Below, piece after piece: positions 2,768 to 11,298 of a stretch of 20,641 nt of DNA; the stretch's first letter is position 1; each line of letters begins with the position of its first letter. Under the pieces are notes generated by a model. That model saw nothing but the letters and a program-made list of their open reading frames with translations. It did not search any database and had not been told where the DNA came from. Location: NCBI GenBank assembly GCA_025435555.1, contig JAIWWG010000191.1, forward strand, positions 1 through 20,641. The letters run 5' to 3'. The DNA is from Chytriomyces cf. hyalinus JEL632 (taxonomy: Eukaryota; Chytridiomycota; Chytridiomycetes; Chytridiales; Chytriomycetaceae). A program made the translations under genes and the position numbers.

Positions 2768-5700
2768 TCAGCTGGCACAGACCTCGTCTGAACTGCAGGC
2801 ACACCCCAGAGATACCATGAACAGCTCAGTCTTCAAGTCCATGGGTAGAGTGACCGAGCCAGCACAATCAGAGAGACTTTCCAAAGCAAGCATGCACGTT
2901 GCTGATTGAATGTTCCACAGCATAATTTGGTTGTCCTCTGAGCAAATGGCAATGCTAGCGTTGCCATCAGATGTAATGGCAATTGAACTCCCTTCAAATG
3001 ATTGAACTTTCTGGGTTACAATGCACTTGCGCATTTGCATATCCCATACCTTCACTTCCGCTGTGATTCGTACAGTATAGATGAGGGTATTGCCATCAGG
3101 TGTGATAGCAACTGAGTCTGCAATATCTGAGCAACTCCAACTGACGCTTCCACTTTCAATGTCCCAAACATAGACTCCAGCGCTGCCATAACCATTATAT
3201 GCGCATGAGCTAAAGGCAATAGTCTTGCCATCAGCAGTCACTGCAATTGCAGTCATGTAACCTTGGTGGTATTCATTTTCAGTCCGTTGTCCAGACTCAA
3301 TGTCCCATGCACAAACACGTAATTCCCATTCCCTTTCTTCGCTTTGAGTAATGGATGCTATGGTCTTGCCATCACAGGCAAGGGCTACCAAAATTACAGG
3401 GGCCTTGTGCTTCAAGATCTTATAACACTCTCTTGTTTGAGTGTTCCACACCTTGACTGTTGTATTCTGTGAGCCAGAGACAATGGTTTGCCCATCAGAG
3501 GAAATAGCAGTTGAGGTGACATAAGAATGACCCAGCAATGTTGCCCCATATGTTCCATTCTGCATTTCCCACACCTTGACTGTATCAGCATCTGCAGACA
3601 CAATAGTAGTACCATCAGAGGATATACTGACTGAGTTCCTACATGTTGAGTGATTCAGGCTTCCAGCACAATTTCCAGTTTGAGTACTCCAGACATTGAC
3701 TTGGTTGTCTAACCAGGAACCAGTAACAACAATTCGCCCATCAGGGGTTACAGCAGCTGAATTCATCTCAGAGTGACCAGGGAACGTCTTTTTCAAATAA
3801 ACTTTGATCTCAGGTCAACTTGTGACAAATAGTTTCACATTGGAAAGACGAAGAAAGGTCCCCAGCAGCAGATTGATATTCTCAGGTGTATCGGCTATTT
3901 CATGCAATGCATCAATGACAACTACAGCTGATGTATTCTTGGCCCAAGCGGTCATCGGTTCCTCAAGAAATTTTTGAAGCAATACTTCAACACTTGGCAT
4001 GGGTTTCTTGTCGTCATTCACATCTTGAAACTTGTAGTTTTTCAAGGTCTTGAGAAGTGCTTTTTGAAACTTGTTATTGGCTTCTGCCAGCTAAGTTGAA
4101 TTGTAAAAATTGAGCTTCATTTGCAAGGTACTGATTGACATGTATCAGGCTTACCTCAAATGCAATCGTCTGAATTAAAGCCACCAAACTCTCCCTTTTT
4201 GTGACTTTGCAGAAAAATACTGCGCCAAGCAATTGCTGCTCATCCAATTTCTGGGCAACACCCCTAGCAACAAACAATGTTCCAGTTCTGCATCGTAACC
4301 AACATACTGGTTTCCCTCCAATATCAATTGACTCCAGCACTTTGTCAACAAGACCTTTTCCACTTTTTTTGGGGGATTTGTTCACCAAAGCCAAGACTTC
4401 TCCTTTGTGGGGATCTGCTTGTTTGCATAGGATATGAAGTTGATCCATATCAGCTTCCTTTTCTTGTTCTTTGGCTGTTTCTTGAGCAACGTCAAATGCA
4501 TTTCGCATGTGTCCCATGTCACTTGCAAGACTGACAAGAATAACAAATTGCCCATTGTCCTTTGCAATTTTGTGTTCGTGCTGAACACTGGCCAGTCGCT
4601 CATTCATTTGATCCAGTGATTCCTTGTTTGATCGAAAAAACAAGTTACCCAATGTTGTGCTGGGGTTGTTGATGTATTTGGTGAACAAAATGGCAGCATC
4701 TGTCAGACAAAGGATAATGTCTCTGGAAGCCTTCACCAGAGTAATTCTTGTCTTATCATCCTTGATACCAGTTATTGGAAGCTTCAGGAAATCAGCAACG
4801 CACTCTAAGATCGTTTGAAGCCGTCCTAGCAATTTTAAGTATTTATGGTGGACTTCACTTGTGTCTTTGACCATCTAAAACACAGTAAATGAAAGGGAAT
4901 GAGGACTTCAATATAGTATCCAGAATCAAGGTCACTGGCTCGTTACCTTGTAACCGGCAGATACCGCAAACCATGACAGTTTCAAAATGGGGTGAACACT
5001 AGCGATACCATCGATGGTGGCCATCACATGGTCTATTGTTTCAGTTACTTTGCTCGACACGTTGGAGACTGTGGCCAAGAATGCTTTGGCATTCGCAGAA
5101 AAGACAATCGCATCGTCAATTGACTTGATCAAATCTTCAGCATTGATATGGGATCCCCTTGTCTTGGCCAGTTGCGTGATCATGTCCTCAAAAGCCTTTC
5201 CCAAGTCCTTGAGTAGCTGGGATCGAATTTCTGTCCCCACTGACGTTGAAAGGGTGTCGGGATCAAGCAGTTAGATGTCATGCAACGGGAATAACGTACG
5301 TGTTCCGTCTGGAAATTTGAGATCAATGCAAGGGGGAGTATCCTTCTTCACATGCTCATCAGCCGCCTTCTCGACTGGTAAGTTTTCGTAGTAACTTGTG
5401 ATATCAAATCTGCACACGTTACTGGTTAAAGCCGGTAACGTATGCACCCAAAAACCTCTTGCTTATATAGTGCAATAAAGCAATAAAAGAAACTTCGAGA
5501 AAAAACATTTGAAATAATTGGAAAAATTGCCAAGTGCACTCAAAATGAAACCTTCAACAGTTTCATGTGAGTTGAATCCTTCACATCGACTGCCACGATC
5601 GGAACATGCGCTGCGGTGGCGTTCTTGGCATCGAGATTTGCACTCTTGAGGGGATGATCGACTCCCTTTCTGTTCAATACCTGCACGGGCAACAATGCCC

Positions 5701-5770
5701 TTGCAGGTCTCTTGGCTGCTGTGGACGAGGGCGCAGCAGCGCTTCCAACCTTTGGATTGGCTCTGTCCAA
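2768..5770 (-). pseudogene. NACHT-WD40 (NLR-like) gene, probably inactive
   Basis: Exons by phase matching: about 5770-5552, 5456-5300, 5239-4947, 4874-4155 and 4090-2768; introns 5240-5299, 4875-4946 and 4091-4154 have clean GT/AG ends. The join between the first two exons does not keep frame, and no in-frame ATG is visible (5770 is TTG). In order: an N-terminal region containing HVPIVAVDVKDSTHMK, a helical segment (ATIDGIASVHPILKLSWF), a NACHT module and seven WD40 repeats (3790-2800; e.g. GHSYVTSTAISSDGQTIVSG). Walker B is good (AVVVIDALHEIAD, about 3885-3925). Walker A is degenerate: CWLRCRTGTLFVARGVAQ lacks the GKS/T expected after GT (about 4257-4304). An in-frame TGA at 3815-3817 replaces the Arg of the conserved VTSRPE motif, and WD40 repeats follow about 12 codons later, so the NACHT C-terminal half is missing. 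Intact relatives are STAND-type NTPases acting as intracellular sensors, with the repeats as the sensing part. Confidence 0.85.
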
Positions 5771-5955
5771 TGCTCAGTGTCAATTTGCTTGCTCAATTTG
5801 CTGGTCTGTTTAAATTGAGCAGCTGCGGTTGTATGCGAAACTGTTACACGGTCACGTGACAGAATCAATGTGCGCACATGCCATTCAAAGGATCCGATAA
5901 CAAGCAGTCCCGTCTTTTTACAGCACAAGCAATCCAACGCAAGTGCTGCATGCAT

Positions 5956-6361
5956 TCACATCTCTTCCTTTTCCTTCAAAGTGCCTGAAACTGTAAATTC
6001 CTCTTTCATTCCTGGTTTTACGGGCAACACAATTTTGAGAATTCCACTGACGTGAGCCGGCCTCGTAAGTTGATCAAAGCCATTTGGTGTTCTATTAGAA
6101 AATAACACATTAAATTGGACCAATTCGCGCGTGTTTGAAATTGAGCTGATCACCAAAGCCAACATCCAGGTCGCATCAGGTTGTGACAAAACTAAAGCGA
6201 CATTTCACTATTGACGGAACAGCACTTGCACCCTGTTTCTCTGTCAACAAGGTTGCCTTGATGGTCGGTGCAAGATCAACAAATTCATTGCACTCTGCTG
6301 CCCAATGTGTCACAGGATGTAGTAATTGAATACAAACCAAATTTAGAACCAGATTTATCAC
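5956..6361 (-). pseudogene. Unknown beta-rich domain, inverted relative of the 6372-7014 gene
   Basis: Two minus-strand frames look coding. One (6361 to about 6190) includes EFVDLAPTIKATLLTEKQG. The other (6189-5956) includes TWMLALVISSISNTRELVQF followed by SNRTPNGFDQL and GILKIVLPVKPGMKEEFTVS, and ends at a stop at 5956. The second aligns by eye with the plus-strand gene that follows (SWFVQIILVVSPSSNKAVSF, then PNGVWDL): matching W, SxSN, F and PNGxxDL positions. The two frames differ by one phase near 6185, where I see no normal-length intron, so this copy is likely broken. The alternating hydrophobic pattern suggests a beta-sandwich. The family is unknown and no function is assigned. Confidence 0.4.
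6156..6250. repeat. Direct repeat, copy 1 (partner 7013-7119)
   Basis: This stretch of about 95 bp is repeated about 857 bp downstream. Shared blocks include ccaggtcg, catttcactattgacg and acagcacttgcaccctgt. It overlaps the start of the minus-strand domain copy. The two copies bracket the plus-strand gene at 6372-7014. Confidence 0.85.
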
Positions 6362-7014: not shown

Positions 7015-7119
7015 GCCAAAGTCCAGGTCGTGTCAGTTTGTCACAAACAAAAGCGTCAAACAAAAGCGTCATTTCACTATTGACGAAACAGCACTTGCAC
7101 CCTGTTTCTCTGTCAACAA
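7013..7119. repeat. Direct repeat, copy 2 (partner 6156-6250)
   Basis: This is the second copy of the repeat at 6156-6250. It begins at the stop codon of the 6372-7014 gene. It is longer because it contains its own 13-bp tandem duplication (aaacaaaagcgtc twice, about 7045-7070). Confidence 0.85.
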
Positions 7120-7200
7120 AGAGGAATGTTATTTTCAGTGGTTCTCCTGTTTATTTTGATTCATCATTGTCCAAAACAATACAAGGACAGATGAAATCCG

Positions 7201-10200
7201 TCATTCCAATTTGATCTGGATGCCCGAAATTCTTGTCACATTCAACAGCTTTGTCTTCATGCCATCCATGTCCAGCAAACCTGAAGACATCATGTCTTGA
7301 TATAGTTCAAGAAGAGAGCCAAGTATTTTTTTGCATGCTGAGTGTCCAGGGCCAAGCTTTTCGGCAGCTGCGCCTAAAAACAAATTCAGCACATCCTCAC
7401 TTGATTCAAATTCACGTGAAGCTTTGTAGTGTTCGGAAAGAATTGACATGACAGTCAGCCCGGTGCCAGTAACAAGTTGGTTTTCCTCTTGAAGAGCCGA
7501 AAGTAAACTCATCCACGCTTCCATCACTTCTTGTTTCGCACTCAGTGGGGAATAGACTTGAAGGATGCGCTCAAGCTGGTCCATGGCTTCAAGAATTTGC
7601 GTGGCCTGGCTCCCATAAAGCATTTTAGTCAGAGAAACATGTTCACGTGCCCTTTCCACTGCTTCGATTTGTCCGGCAGATTCATGCGCCACGTAAATCT
7701 TGAGCAGAGATTTCAGGATGAGCAAGTAGTCCTTTCCAACGACATTCAGCGCTTTCAATTGTGTCAAATGCTCAACATAAAGCTCAGCTGCTTCCAAGAA
7801 CCTCCCGCGCGTTGTCTTGACACTTCCAAGAGAATAGAGGCACATGGACACCCATCCTCCGGTAATGCCGTCAGCAGAAACAACTGCATTGAAGCACTCA
7901 CTTGCTACCATTTCAGCCTCGTCAAATTCCTCCAATCCTATAAGACCGTCAACCAGCTGCCGCTTAAACATCATACTGTACTGGGTACTTTTCAGTTCTT
8001 CCAGCTCAGCTATTGCACCAACACAGAAATCCTTAAGCAGTTGAAATTCTTCGCGTCGAACCCACTCAAGGCATTGATTCAGTCCTGCATTCACAGCTTT
8101 CTGACTGGCAACGCCATAGAACAGCGTCATGCCCTCTCGAACATCCAGATATTCTTTTTGGGCCATTCCGACTTGGTAGTAAGTATCGCAAGCCATGGAT
8201 GTGGAAGGGGAAGTTGGGTCAACTTTAAACCACGTGTAACTCATCTCTCGTAAAAGGGGAAGTGCTTTTCCAGTGTTTTCCATGAGGTTGATGTACAAGG
8301 CTGCCAAATTGTTGAGCGCATTGAGATAATTCACATCCTCCAAGTTACCCAACTTTCTCCATCCTTCAACTTCTTCAAGAAGGTACAGTTCAGCCAAGTC
8401 AGCTTTACCTTCCCGCATGTAACGCATTCCCACCAGATGAAGAGCATAAAGGGTTTTCTGGTGCGTTTCGCCAAGGTACTTCTTGCAAACTGAGAGCCCT
8501 TTCTCTGGCTCATTTTTTCGGGTGTAGAGTCGCTGGAGACCTTCCACACTATCTTCAGTATCTGGATGCAACGGGCCCAGGACTTGATATCGTTTCTCAG
8601 CGCATTCAGACAGATAGGCCAAACTAGCATCCAAATCGTTTGCAGCAGCATGGCTGGATGCAAGTAGCATGAGGAGACTGAGAGTTTTTGGATGATCTTC
8701 ACCGATTGTTGCCTTGTATTTCTCCAGAACTGCAGCTTCTTGCTCAATTACTTTTTTGAAGTCGCCTTGTTCCTTGTAAACTTTGCATATGTTGATCATG
8801 GATGTGAGGGTTTTCTCATGAAGCTCCCCATATACTTGAATTTGGGCTTGAATAATCTCTGTGAATATCGATTCAGCGGCATCAAACTCAGACAGCTTGA
8901 CATGCACAAAGGCCAGATTATTCAAGAATTGAATAGTGTGTTGACTGCTGCGGCCGTATGCTCCCTGCGCAATTTCCACCATCGCTTCGTTATGACGCAC
9001 AGCTTCCGAAAGCTGGTTCAAATCACTATATAGGGCACCTTTTGTCAGCTGGAGAGAAAGCATGAGTGGGTTTGCTGGATCCAATGTTGAATCCCGTAAA
9101 GCCATATCGATCACTTCGCCGGCTTTTTCAGTGTCTTTCAGGTCTTGAAGATAAATGACAGCAAGTTGGTTCATCATGTTGAGCGTTTCCAGGTGCGAGG
9201 GGCCGAGAATAGCTTTCTGGTGTTCCAAATTCCGCTGCAGTATATCGACAGCAGCCTTGTGATCTCCAAGAAGAGAAGTCACGCTGGCAAGCGGCGGTGC
9301 CAAACTGCAGGTGCGATAGTCGTTGGGGCCAAAAAGAAGAAGAGCATTGGAAAAGACTTGTTTCGACAGATCCAATGCATCTTGGACTCGACCCAATTCG
9401 ACAAGCAAAGCTGCCTTTCCCATTTGTATTTGGAAAAGGCGAAAACTACCAAGGAATGCAGAGCGTGATTGTGATGCGATTGCCGCATCAAGGTATTCGA
9501 GACTTTTTCCCAACTCGCCCTTATCCTTGTAAATAGAGGAGAGGGACACAGTTTGACTGATGGCCAGGCCGCTGTCTTCCCCAAGATTGCGCTTGCTGCG
9601 AGTAAGAGCATCCTTCAGAACGGATTCGGCAGCGTCCCACTCTCGTAGTGCGACCAACGCCGCGCCATAATTATTAAGAGCAAGAATGCGGTCAGGATGG
9701 TTTTCCTCGAGAGCACGCTCACTCAATTCAACTATCAAAACGCCGCAGTCCTTGGCTTCTTGCAGCCGACCCTGCTTGCAAAGCAACGAGACATAATTTG
9801 CGTACGCACGAATATAAACTTCGTTTTCGCGTCCAGAAACACGTTCAGCAGTCGCCAATAATCTTGTCAACAACTCGCTTGCTTTCGAAAATTCGCCTTT
9901 GAGTTGGTAAACTTCAGCCAGGTTATTCATCATCCCAAAAATGGATGGATCATCTGGACCGACTTGTGCCAGCTTGCTTGGGTAACAGTGGTTGAGAATA
10001 TCTCCTGCTTTTTGAAGGTCCCCTATTTCCTGGTATAAGCTTCCCAGCGTGGCTTCGGTTGCCAAAGTATCGACTTCCTCAGGACCTGATGTGCGCCGCT
10101 GCAATTCCAAGCCTTGCTCCAACCAAACAATCGCCTCGTCGCTTCTTTCCAAGTGCTTCAAAAAGGAACCCAGCGCAACTGCCCAGTTACCGCGATTGCG

Positions 10201-11298
10201 TTCACTCTCTGCGTTTTCCACTTGCCATTTCAACTTGTCCGTTGCCCACTTTAAAAAAACCGAAAACACCATGCGATCGAGATTCGGGAACCCACCGACT
10301 TGCAGTTCCACAACGCGGAAGATTTGGTCACGGTCCGAGGGTTGGCTCGCCTCTGCTTTACTGCAACGGATTCTCCCAAGGATTCGATGCAATTCGTACC
10401 CATCGTATTGGAGTGCAGCAAGAAAAGATTTCGTCTCTTGATTCGTCATGGCGACATGAAAATTACTTTCCGTCTTAAGACACGAGTACAGCTCGAAAAT
10501 ACACCTGGAGCCAAGTTTGTGTTAGGGTGTGAGGTTAACCACAAGAAACAATTTTTCTTGTCACTCACCAAGCCCTTGTCAATGGAATTGGGTCGCTCCA
10601 AGGAGCCAAAACCATCACAACGTTCTTCATGGCCTTGATGGCACCCATAAACACATCCGTCCAAAAGGAGAAAGGCTTCGTCGCCGTGTCATGTTGAGAA
10701 TTCGAAAACAGATCGAACCAGATTATGACGGAGTCTGGATCCATCTTGCGTTCCCAGACAAAGAATTCTTCCAGGGCGTCGACAACGTCCAGAAACTTGT
10801 ACTTCCAAGCATGAGAAATGAACCATTCCGCGTCAGCGGTCACGTCATCGTTTGGGTCTTTTTGATCACGATTTGAGTATTTGTCTGTGTGAGTTTGATG
10901 CAGTTGGCTGCAGAGGGAGATGCGCGAGGATTCTGTTGCAGGCTTCACAAACTTAACGCTCATGTCTGCGGTCGTCATTTCAGCAAGAGCGTCTCTGCCC
11001 CCGCAGTCGTTCACGTATTGAAAAAGGAACGAAAGGCGGACGCCGCGGATGTCCATATCCGAGCCGGCATCGTGATCAGGGGTAGACTCCTGGAATGTAG
11101 CATTCAGAAGCTAGTAAGAACAGCAGTAATGGACGAACGTGGCACCTTTGGTGCTGCGACTTCCTTGGCAAGCGGCGAAGTGACACATTTTTCGTACACG
11201 ACACGGACTGTCTCTGTCACAGTTTCCTTGCAGCGTCCGGCAGCGAAAGTGGTGTGGACCGTCCTCGTTGTCGTTGTGGTTTTGCTGGCTTGAGGCAT
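7201..11298 (-). CDS. TIR-like domain plus TPR (kinesin-light-chain-type repeats) protein, 1325 aa
   Basis: Exons are 11298-11146, 11089-10569 and 10504-7201; introns 11090-11145 (56 nt) and 10505-10568 (64 nt) have GTGCC/CCAG and GTGAGT/CCAG ends. The spliced length is 3978 nt with no internal stop. The start ATG 11298 has an A-rich context (AAAATG). Residues 1-51 are Thr-rich. Residues about 95-245 form the 'FISHAW' domain: FISHAWKYKFLDVVDALEEF (141 on), IIWFDLFSNSQHD (about 172-184) and PWSDPIPLTRAWCIFELYSC (214-233, crossing the second splice). Its order resembles TIR folds, and Glu229 in WCIFEL sits where TIR enzymes place their catalytic Glu; that comparison is inference. Residues about 330-1290 are TPRs with the kinesin-light-chain/NPHP3 spacing (HPKTLSLLMLLASSHA). 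Probably a cytosolic signalling or sensor protein: TPRs bind a partner, the N-terminal domain is the effector. No central NTPase domain is present. Substrate unknown. Confidence 0.9.

Follow-up and report, generated by a model that had tools for sequence, protein, structure and literature searches.

A TPR-repeat protein with a TIR- and HET-like domain, a candidate one-piece effector-sensor receptor in a flagellated fungus

The window, by which we mean the whole stretch of 20,641 nucleotides analyzed here, carries an intact gene for a protein in which a domain that we call FISHAW (a word we did not find in the literature) is followed by a long array of kinesin-light-chain-type TPRs. We lean towards reading this protein, encoded by a flagellated (chytrid-like) fungus, as a one-piece effector-sensor receptor belonging to the TIR/HET superfamily; matches to class-1 chitin synthases at 18 places in the genome, together with radial-spoke matches at 12, indicate a flagellated fungus. 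The FISHAW domain would be a divergent TIR-type α/β effector whose W225-x3-E229 is the counterpart of the catalytic WxxxE of TIR NADases, and the long TPR superhelix would bind a ligand or a target protein. With no NTPase switch separating the FISHAW domain from the TPRs, FISHAW domains would come together directly once the TPR part binds or clusters, and the clustered domains would cleave NAD+ or a related nucleotide, with cell death or a signal as the outcome. We infer the fold, the catalysis, the activation by proximity and the immune or allorecognition role of this protein from the comparisons presented below. The gene has the following parts (window coordinates):

11298 to 7201, minus strand: FISHAW-TPR gene, ATG at 11298, three exons, 1325 residues, one frame
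11146..11298, minus strand: exon 1, residues 1-51, a Thr-rich segment at the N-terminus
11090..11145, minus strand: intron 1, 56 nt, GT..AG
10569..11089, minus strand: exon 2, residues 52-225 with the final codon split, holding the conserved lead-in (starting at G67) and the beginning of the FISHAW domain
10805..10822, minus strand: FISHAW motif, residues 141-146 (S143, H144, W146)
10688..10726, minus strand: IIWFDLFSNSQHD, residues 173-185, including D177, HET-like signature
10505..10568, minus strand: intron 2, 64 nt, GT..AG, within the W225 codon
7201..10504, minus strand: exon 3, remaining FISHAW domain, linker, TPR array, stop ending at 7201
10492..10494, minus strand: E229, candidate catalytic glutamate (W225-x3-E229)
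7204..10182, minus strand: kinesin-light-chain-type TPR array from about residue 333, by Pfam and PDB sequence matches

The protein thus runs from a Thr-rich N-terminus through the FISHAW domain (residues ~134-290) to the kinesin-light-chain-type TPR array. The preliminary description had placed three motifs in a TIR-like order, in one frame and with two clean introns, and the gene model gives the same order: FISHAW, IIWFDLFSNSQHD and, third, LTRAWCIFEL (residues 221-230). Its numbering was right for E229, while the tryptophan and the aspartate given there as W144 and D176 are W146 and D177. The ..LTRAW/CIFEL.. splice is supported by paralogs that lack intron 2 and cross the same spot free of gaps. 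The TPR assignment likewise stands: Pfam finds 13 TPR_12 stretches in exon 3 (E 5.8e-67), and KLC1 and KLC2 are the top PDB sequence matches of these repeats. An NTPase module had been reported missing, and this too was borne out. No NTPase family is listed by Pfam for residues 1-372 or for exon 3 at E<=10, a limit at which the HMMER filters discard most matches above ~0.1, nor is there an NTPase match in any of the ten paralog reading frames scanned (E<=0.01; some frames are single exons, and the scan left out the C13 copy, the second C172 tandem copy, the C131 copy and the degenerate C177 copy).

To collect these paralogs, the genome to which the window belongs (37.8 Mb in 242 contigs) was searched at the protein level, giving 25 places that we grouped into about 15 copies:

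The window: one copy
Contig C172: three copies, two of them in tandem
Contig C3: one copy
Contig C177: a tandem pair, one intact and one degenerate
C1:553984, C190, C13, C186, C207, C1:83624 and C179: one copy each
Contig C131: one copy, interrupted

C128, whose scores are identical to those of C1:83624, was omitted from this count, and a further genome search found an additional, truncated copy on C33. The family is both tandem and dispersed, with some members interrupted or truncated. TPR matches are present in eight of the ten paralog reading frames scanned (Pfam, E<=0.01; some frames are single exons); the frames scanned for the other two, L027 and L029, encode a FISHAW domain with no Pfam match of any kind, TPRs included. 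Short patterns or tblastn, searches that distant relatives would escape, turned up no relative in viral contigs, among prokaryote genomes, or in phages and plasmids.

The preliminary description called the domain TIR-like, and here the outcome is divided: a profile relationship stands up to shuffle controls, and a Pfam TIR match is lacking. Neither Pfam TIR model (PF01582/PF13676) is listed at E<=10, under the same filters, for the window protein or for eight family members, whose scan yielded a single chance-like match in one member (E 0.29). The FISHAW domain is likewise without a match in NCBIfam and PADLOC at E<=1 and unrecognised in a PDB sequence search with the window protein, and a FISHAW profile run against PDB gave a lone chance-like match to an ABC transporter (E 0.01). 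We compared the FISHAW profile by hhalign with several TIR sets, all of them small. The first consisted of bacterial TIRs retrieved with a PdTIR fragment in which the letters FISHAW also occur, and gave P 3.8e-6 (score 41.1, against a maximum of 27.3 in 100 shuffles); with the first strand removed the score fell to 15.2, within the shuffles (maximum 19.5). We rejected the link from this set as biased by the FISHAW-selected strand.

Since the first set had been selected on that strand, further sets were built. A second set joined four viral-contig TIRs, three own-genome TIRs and four PDB chains; the viral-contig sequences were fetched with a query beginning after the first strand, yet they read FISHAS and are near copies of one another. 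The whole second set gave P 3.6e-6 and, minus PdTIR, P 2.5e-6 (score 42.1, maximum 17.5 in 60 shuffles), the latter dropping to 19.3 without the first strand, barely above its shuffle maximum of 18.0. Set A, from which PdTIR and 4c7m were both taken out, gave P 2.9e-7 (score 48.0, shuffle maximum 21.4) and, without the first strand, 19.5, within the shuffles (maximum 21.7). Set B has eight rows (four viral-contig, three own-genome and one C. elegans/SARM1 chain) and no bacterial PDB chain; it gave a probability of 93.4% and P 2.5e-7 over 81 columns, reaching from the first strand to helix C; its score of 48.3 exceeded the best of 60 column shuffles (20.8), and removing the first strand from both sides left a score of 25.0 (P 0.002), clearly above the maximum of 17.3. 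The outcome is thus mixed, two of the four TIR sets beating their shuffles once the first strand is gone. For comparison, the own-genome TIRs matched the bacterial set at P 5.8e-11 as a positive control, and hhalign in global mode was weaker in probability, at 19.8% for TIR (P 2.4e-4) and 47.3% for HET (P 3e-5). By these profile comparisons a relationship between FISHAW and TIR is supported, with much of its strength coming from the first strand.

FISHAW and the TIR NADases (PF01582/PF13676; e.g., PdTIR and SARM1) have in common the order of the motifs, the WxxxE and a W(F/Y)D strand, aligned in register over the 81 columns. They differ in the loop after WFD, which in FISHAW mostly reads SNxQHxTxxKPFxWW, in the conserved lead-in that precedes the FISHAW domain, and in the missing Pfam match. 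E229 falls on the TIR WxxxE glutamate wherever the alignment reaches that far, and WxxxE is present in 25 of the 28 bacterial and all four viral-contig TIRs fetched. An AlphaFold model of residues 62-225, made with no alignment, is all-helical at a confidence too low to decide the fold (pLDDT 42.2, pTM 0.33). In the part of the literature consulted here, NADase activity of TIR domains has been described for animals and plants as well as for bacteria and archaea (PMC8494770).

Among 14 aligned copies of the family, E229 and H144 are retained together in 12, W146 in 13 (it is L in L037), and D177 and W225 in all 14. The alignment omitted L038 (interrupted and close to L033b), C128 (scores the same as L036), L059 (which ends before E229) and C46 (E 0.34, its frames myosin-like by eye). 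The two copies without E229 have G and C (L028b) and K and D (L037) at the E229 and H144 positions. Such joint loss of two polar residues suggests an active site, and the proposal of Glu229 as a candidate catalytic residue holds up insofar as it aligns to the TIR glutamate and is kept in 12 of 14 copies. Of the 12 non-degenerate rows, 11 have a cysteine immediately after W225; for plant TIRs, a passage of one paper relates that a cysteine adjoining the catalytic glutamate is important to the synthesis of 2',3'-cNMP (PMC9153377).

A rather unlikely alternative is that FISHAW is a TIR-fold scaffold devoid of catalysis, which stacks on itself or on HET/TIR partners and recruits effectors, with E229 serving a structural role. 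The same paper states, in its section on the point, that some TIRs do not hydrolyse NAD+ and that their function still needs assembly (PMC9153377), and both copies without E229 keep long open frames (392 aa in L028b and 537 aa in L037); both points favor this alternative. However, the retention of E229 with H144 in 12 of 14 copies and their joint loss in the other two look more like the loss of an active site. On C177, the copy in tandem with the E229-less paralog is an intact FISHAW-TPR gene (L028), and the two could form an active/inactive pair. The degenerate FISHAW-TPR paralog on C179 (L037), which lacks both H144 and E229, has MGCGTSK in frame, which we take to be a possible start for N-myristoylation and palmitoylation.

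The second relationship is with the HET domain (PF06985) of fungal incompatibility proteins. By eye, FISHAW and the HET proteins of the same genome have the HET-type signatures SHxW, WxDxFxxxQ and RxWxxxE in common, as well as a fungal host; the preliminary description makes no mention of HET-type signatures. Hhalign matched FISHAW to five own-genome HET sequences at P 4.8e-5 over 21 columns (score 35.0, maximum 18.2 in 100 shuffles) and to four of them at P 8.7e-5 over 20 columns (33.2, maximum 18.3 in 60 shuffles), the match being centred on WFDLFSNSQH. PF06985 is not listed at E<=10, again under the HMMER filters, for the window protein or any of the eight members. It would also be unlikely, to about the same degree as a scaffold, that FISHAW is simply a HET domain missed by Pfam and the protein a plain HET-TPR protein: the common signatures and the two hhalign scores above their shuffle maxima favor this, but the similarity spans just 21 and 20 columns, with five HET sequences underlying the one match and four the other, TIR gives a longer and stronger match, and PF06985 is absent for eight of eight members.

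HET and TIR matched one another at P 0.02 and 0.0036 with a nine-row TIR set; with the bacterial set P was 0.0053, and 0.93 in global mode. In these small sets FISHAW is thus closer to TIR (P 2.5e-7) and to HET (P 4.8e-5) than HET is to TIR, which makes it a compact subject for testing whether NAD+ is consumed by the TIR/HET branch. The connection between HET and TIR is one of remote similarity. HET has been related to TIR, with the glutamate retained, in portions of three earlier studies (PMC4986451, PMC9815663, PMC9153377), and two reports, in the parts at hand, describe the HET domain as retaining the glutamate and inducing cell death (PMC9815663, PMC12881547); a 2023 review notes in its relevant lines that the activity of the fungal HET domain is still to be demonstrated (PMC10197012). 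A bolder suggestion, which we consider doubtful though conceivable, is that FISHAW is a distinct enzymatic family bridging TIR and HET, and that zoosporic fungi have NTPase-free receptors, a nucleotide-consuming death domain being switched directly by its TPR sensor, alongside TIR-NACHT genes of one and the same genome, with the glutamate-less paralogs as possible regulators.

Between close paralogs, dN/dS is 0.05-0.26 for FISHAW pieces and 0.16-0.59 for TPR pieces. It is greater in the TPRs in four of four pairs, which are not independent (L030 and L031 are each used twice) and three of which span only ~265 TPR codons, and no value among the four pairs exceeds 1. As these values are well below 1, the frames are taken to be real genes, and together with the 34-54% identity of the window domain to seven paralogs in the alignment they place the domain beyond chance. 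Slower change in FISHAW than in the TPRs fits a putative fixed effector joined to a looser sensor. A cargo or scaffold adaptor of the kinesin-light-chain type, in which the TPRs do the work and FISHAW merely binds, unconnected with defence, is improbable: kinesin light chains have these TPRs in common and are their best PDB matches, but the family has undergone duplication, some of it in tandem, and includes interrupted and truncated copies, constraint is stronger on FISHAW than on the TPRs, and in L027 and L029 the frame scanned has FISHAW and no TPR match.

A one-piece receptor of the kind we favor would resemble several known designs. Fungal and plant NLRs with TPRs, plant TNPs among them, have an N-terminal effector-type domain and C-terminal TPRs, according to the sections that treat them (PMC12881547, PMC9153377). 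FISHAW followed by TPRs agrees with this NLR-like order, the effector role of FISHAW being putative; unlike NLRs, the FISHAW protein has no NB-ARC or NACHT match between the domain and the repeats. Oyster TIR-TPR (PMC4346834) and oomycete ankyrin-TIR proteins (PMC9153377) combine TIR with repeats, and the passages describing them name no NTPase; they differ in being called TIR proteins in their papers. As far as those passages go, TIR joined to repeats with no NTPase named was thus already known (PMC4346834, PMC9153377). What is new here is that the members scanned lack an NTPase, that E229 and H144 are conserved and, where lost, lost jointly, and that the domain lies near both TIR and HET.

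The same genome has TIR_2 matches at 15 places (11 over the cut-off), HET matches at six, and NACHT matches at six (four over the cut-off). TIR_2 lies just upstream of a NACHT match, within ~1 kb and on one strand, on C166 (L095) and on C187 (L096), the latter in three similar units with TIR_2 below the cut-off. From this arrangement, the genome probably has TIR-NACHT genes in addition to the FISHAW family; NLRs of Chytridiomycota with TIR have been reported, in the portion of the study consulted (PMC9815663). If the FISHAW proteins are one-piece receptors, they would exemplify a design that dispenses with the NLR switch, although TIR and NACHT exons adjoin one another in the same genome.

Thr-rich first exons comparable to the window's sit upstream of seven other FISHAW copies; these segments have composition in common, not the order of residues. 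A HET protein of the same genome, L053, also begins with a Thr-rich segment. An N-terminal model that included L053 gave it a good score, and we rejected an N-terminal signalling motif common to both groups, as 3076 of 5000 L053 shuffles scored as high with a model of six FISHAW N-termini. Nor did six-FISHAW models prefer the left-out window protein (1013 of 5000 shuffles as high) or L034 (466 of 5000). In pairwise shuffles restricted to the residues beyond the Thr run, the pair of window and L053 stands out (11 of 2000); the other five of the six pairs gave 284-1720 of 2000.

A repeated element adjoins the start of the FISHAW gene:

11363 to at least 11562: terminal part of a high-copy transposon, starting CACCCCCAATCTTTTCACGG, with palindromic CCGATTTATCGG subrepeats

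Near-identical copies of this end lie at 33 places in the genome, one of them in the window, and its boundary, set by three other copies, lies 64 bp upstream of the ATG, which makes the expression of the window copy uncertain; the native promoter of this copy may have been displaced by the transposon. On the other side, a minus-strand gene at 2768-5800 resembles a dead NACHT-WD40 gene. Pfam detects its WD40 part only, the NACHT part being recognized by eye; the Walker A region has no lysine, and the frame meets a stop codon ahead of the WD40 part. By eye, a stretch of ~50 bp (catttcactattgacg.aacagcacttgcaccctgtttctctgtcaacaa) occurs twice downstream of the FISHAW gene, at about 6200-6252 and 7067-7122.
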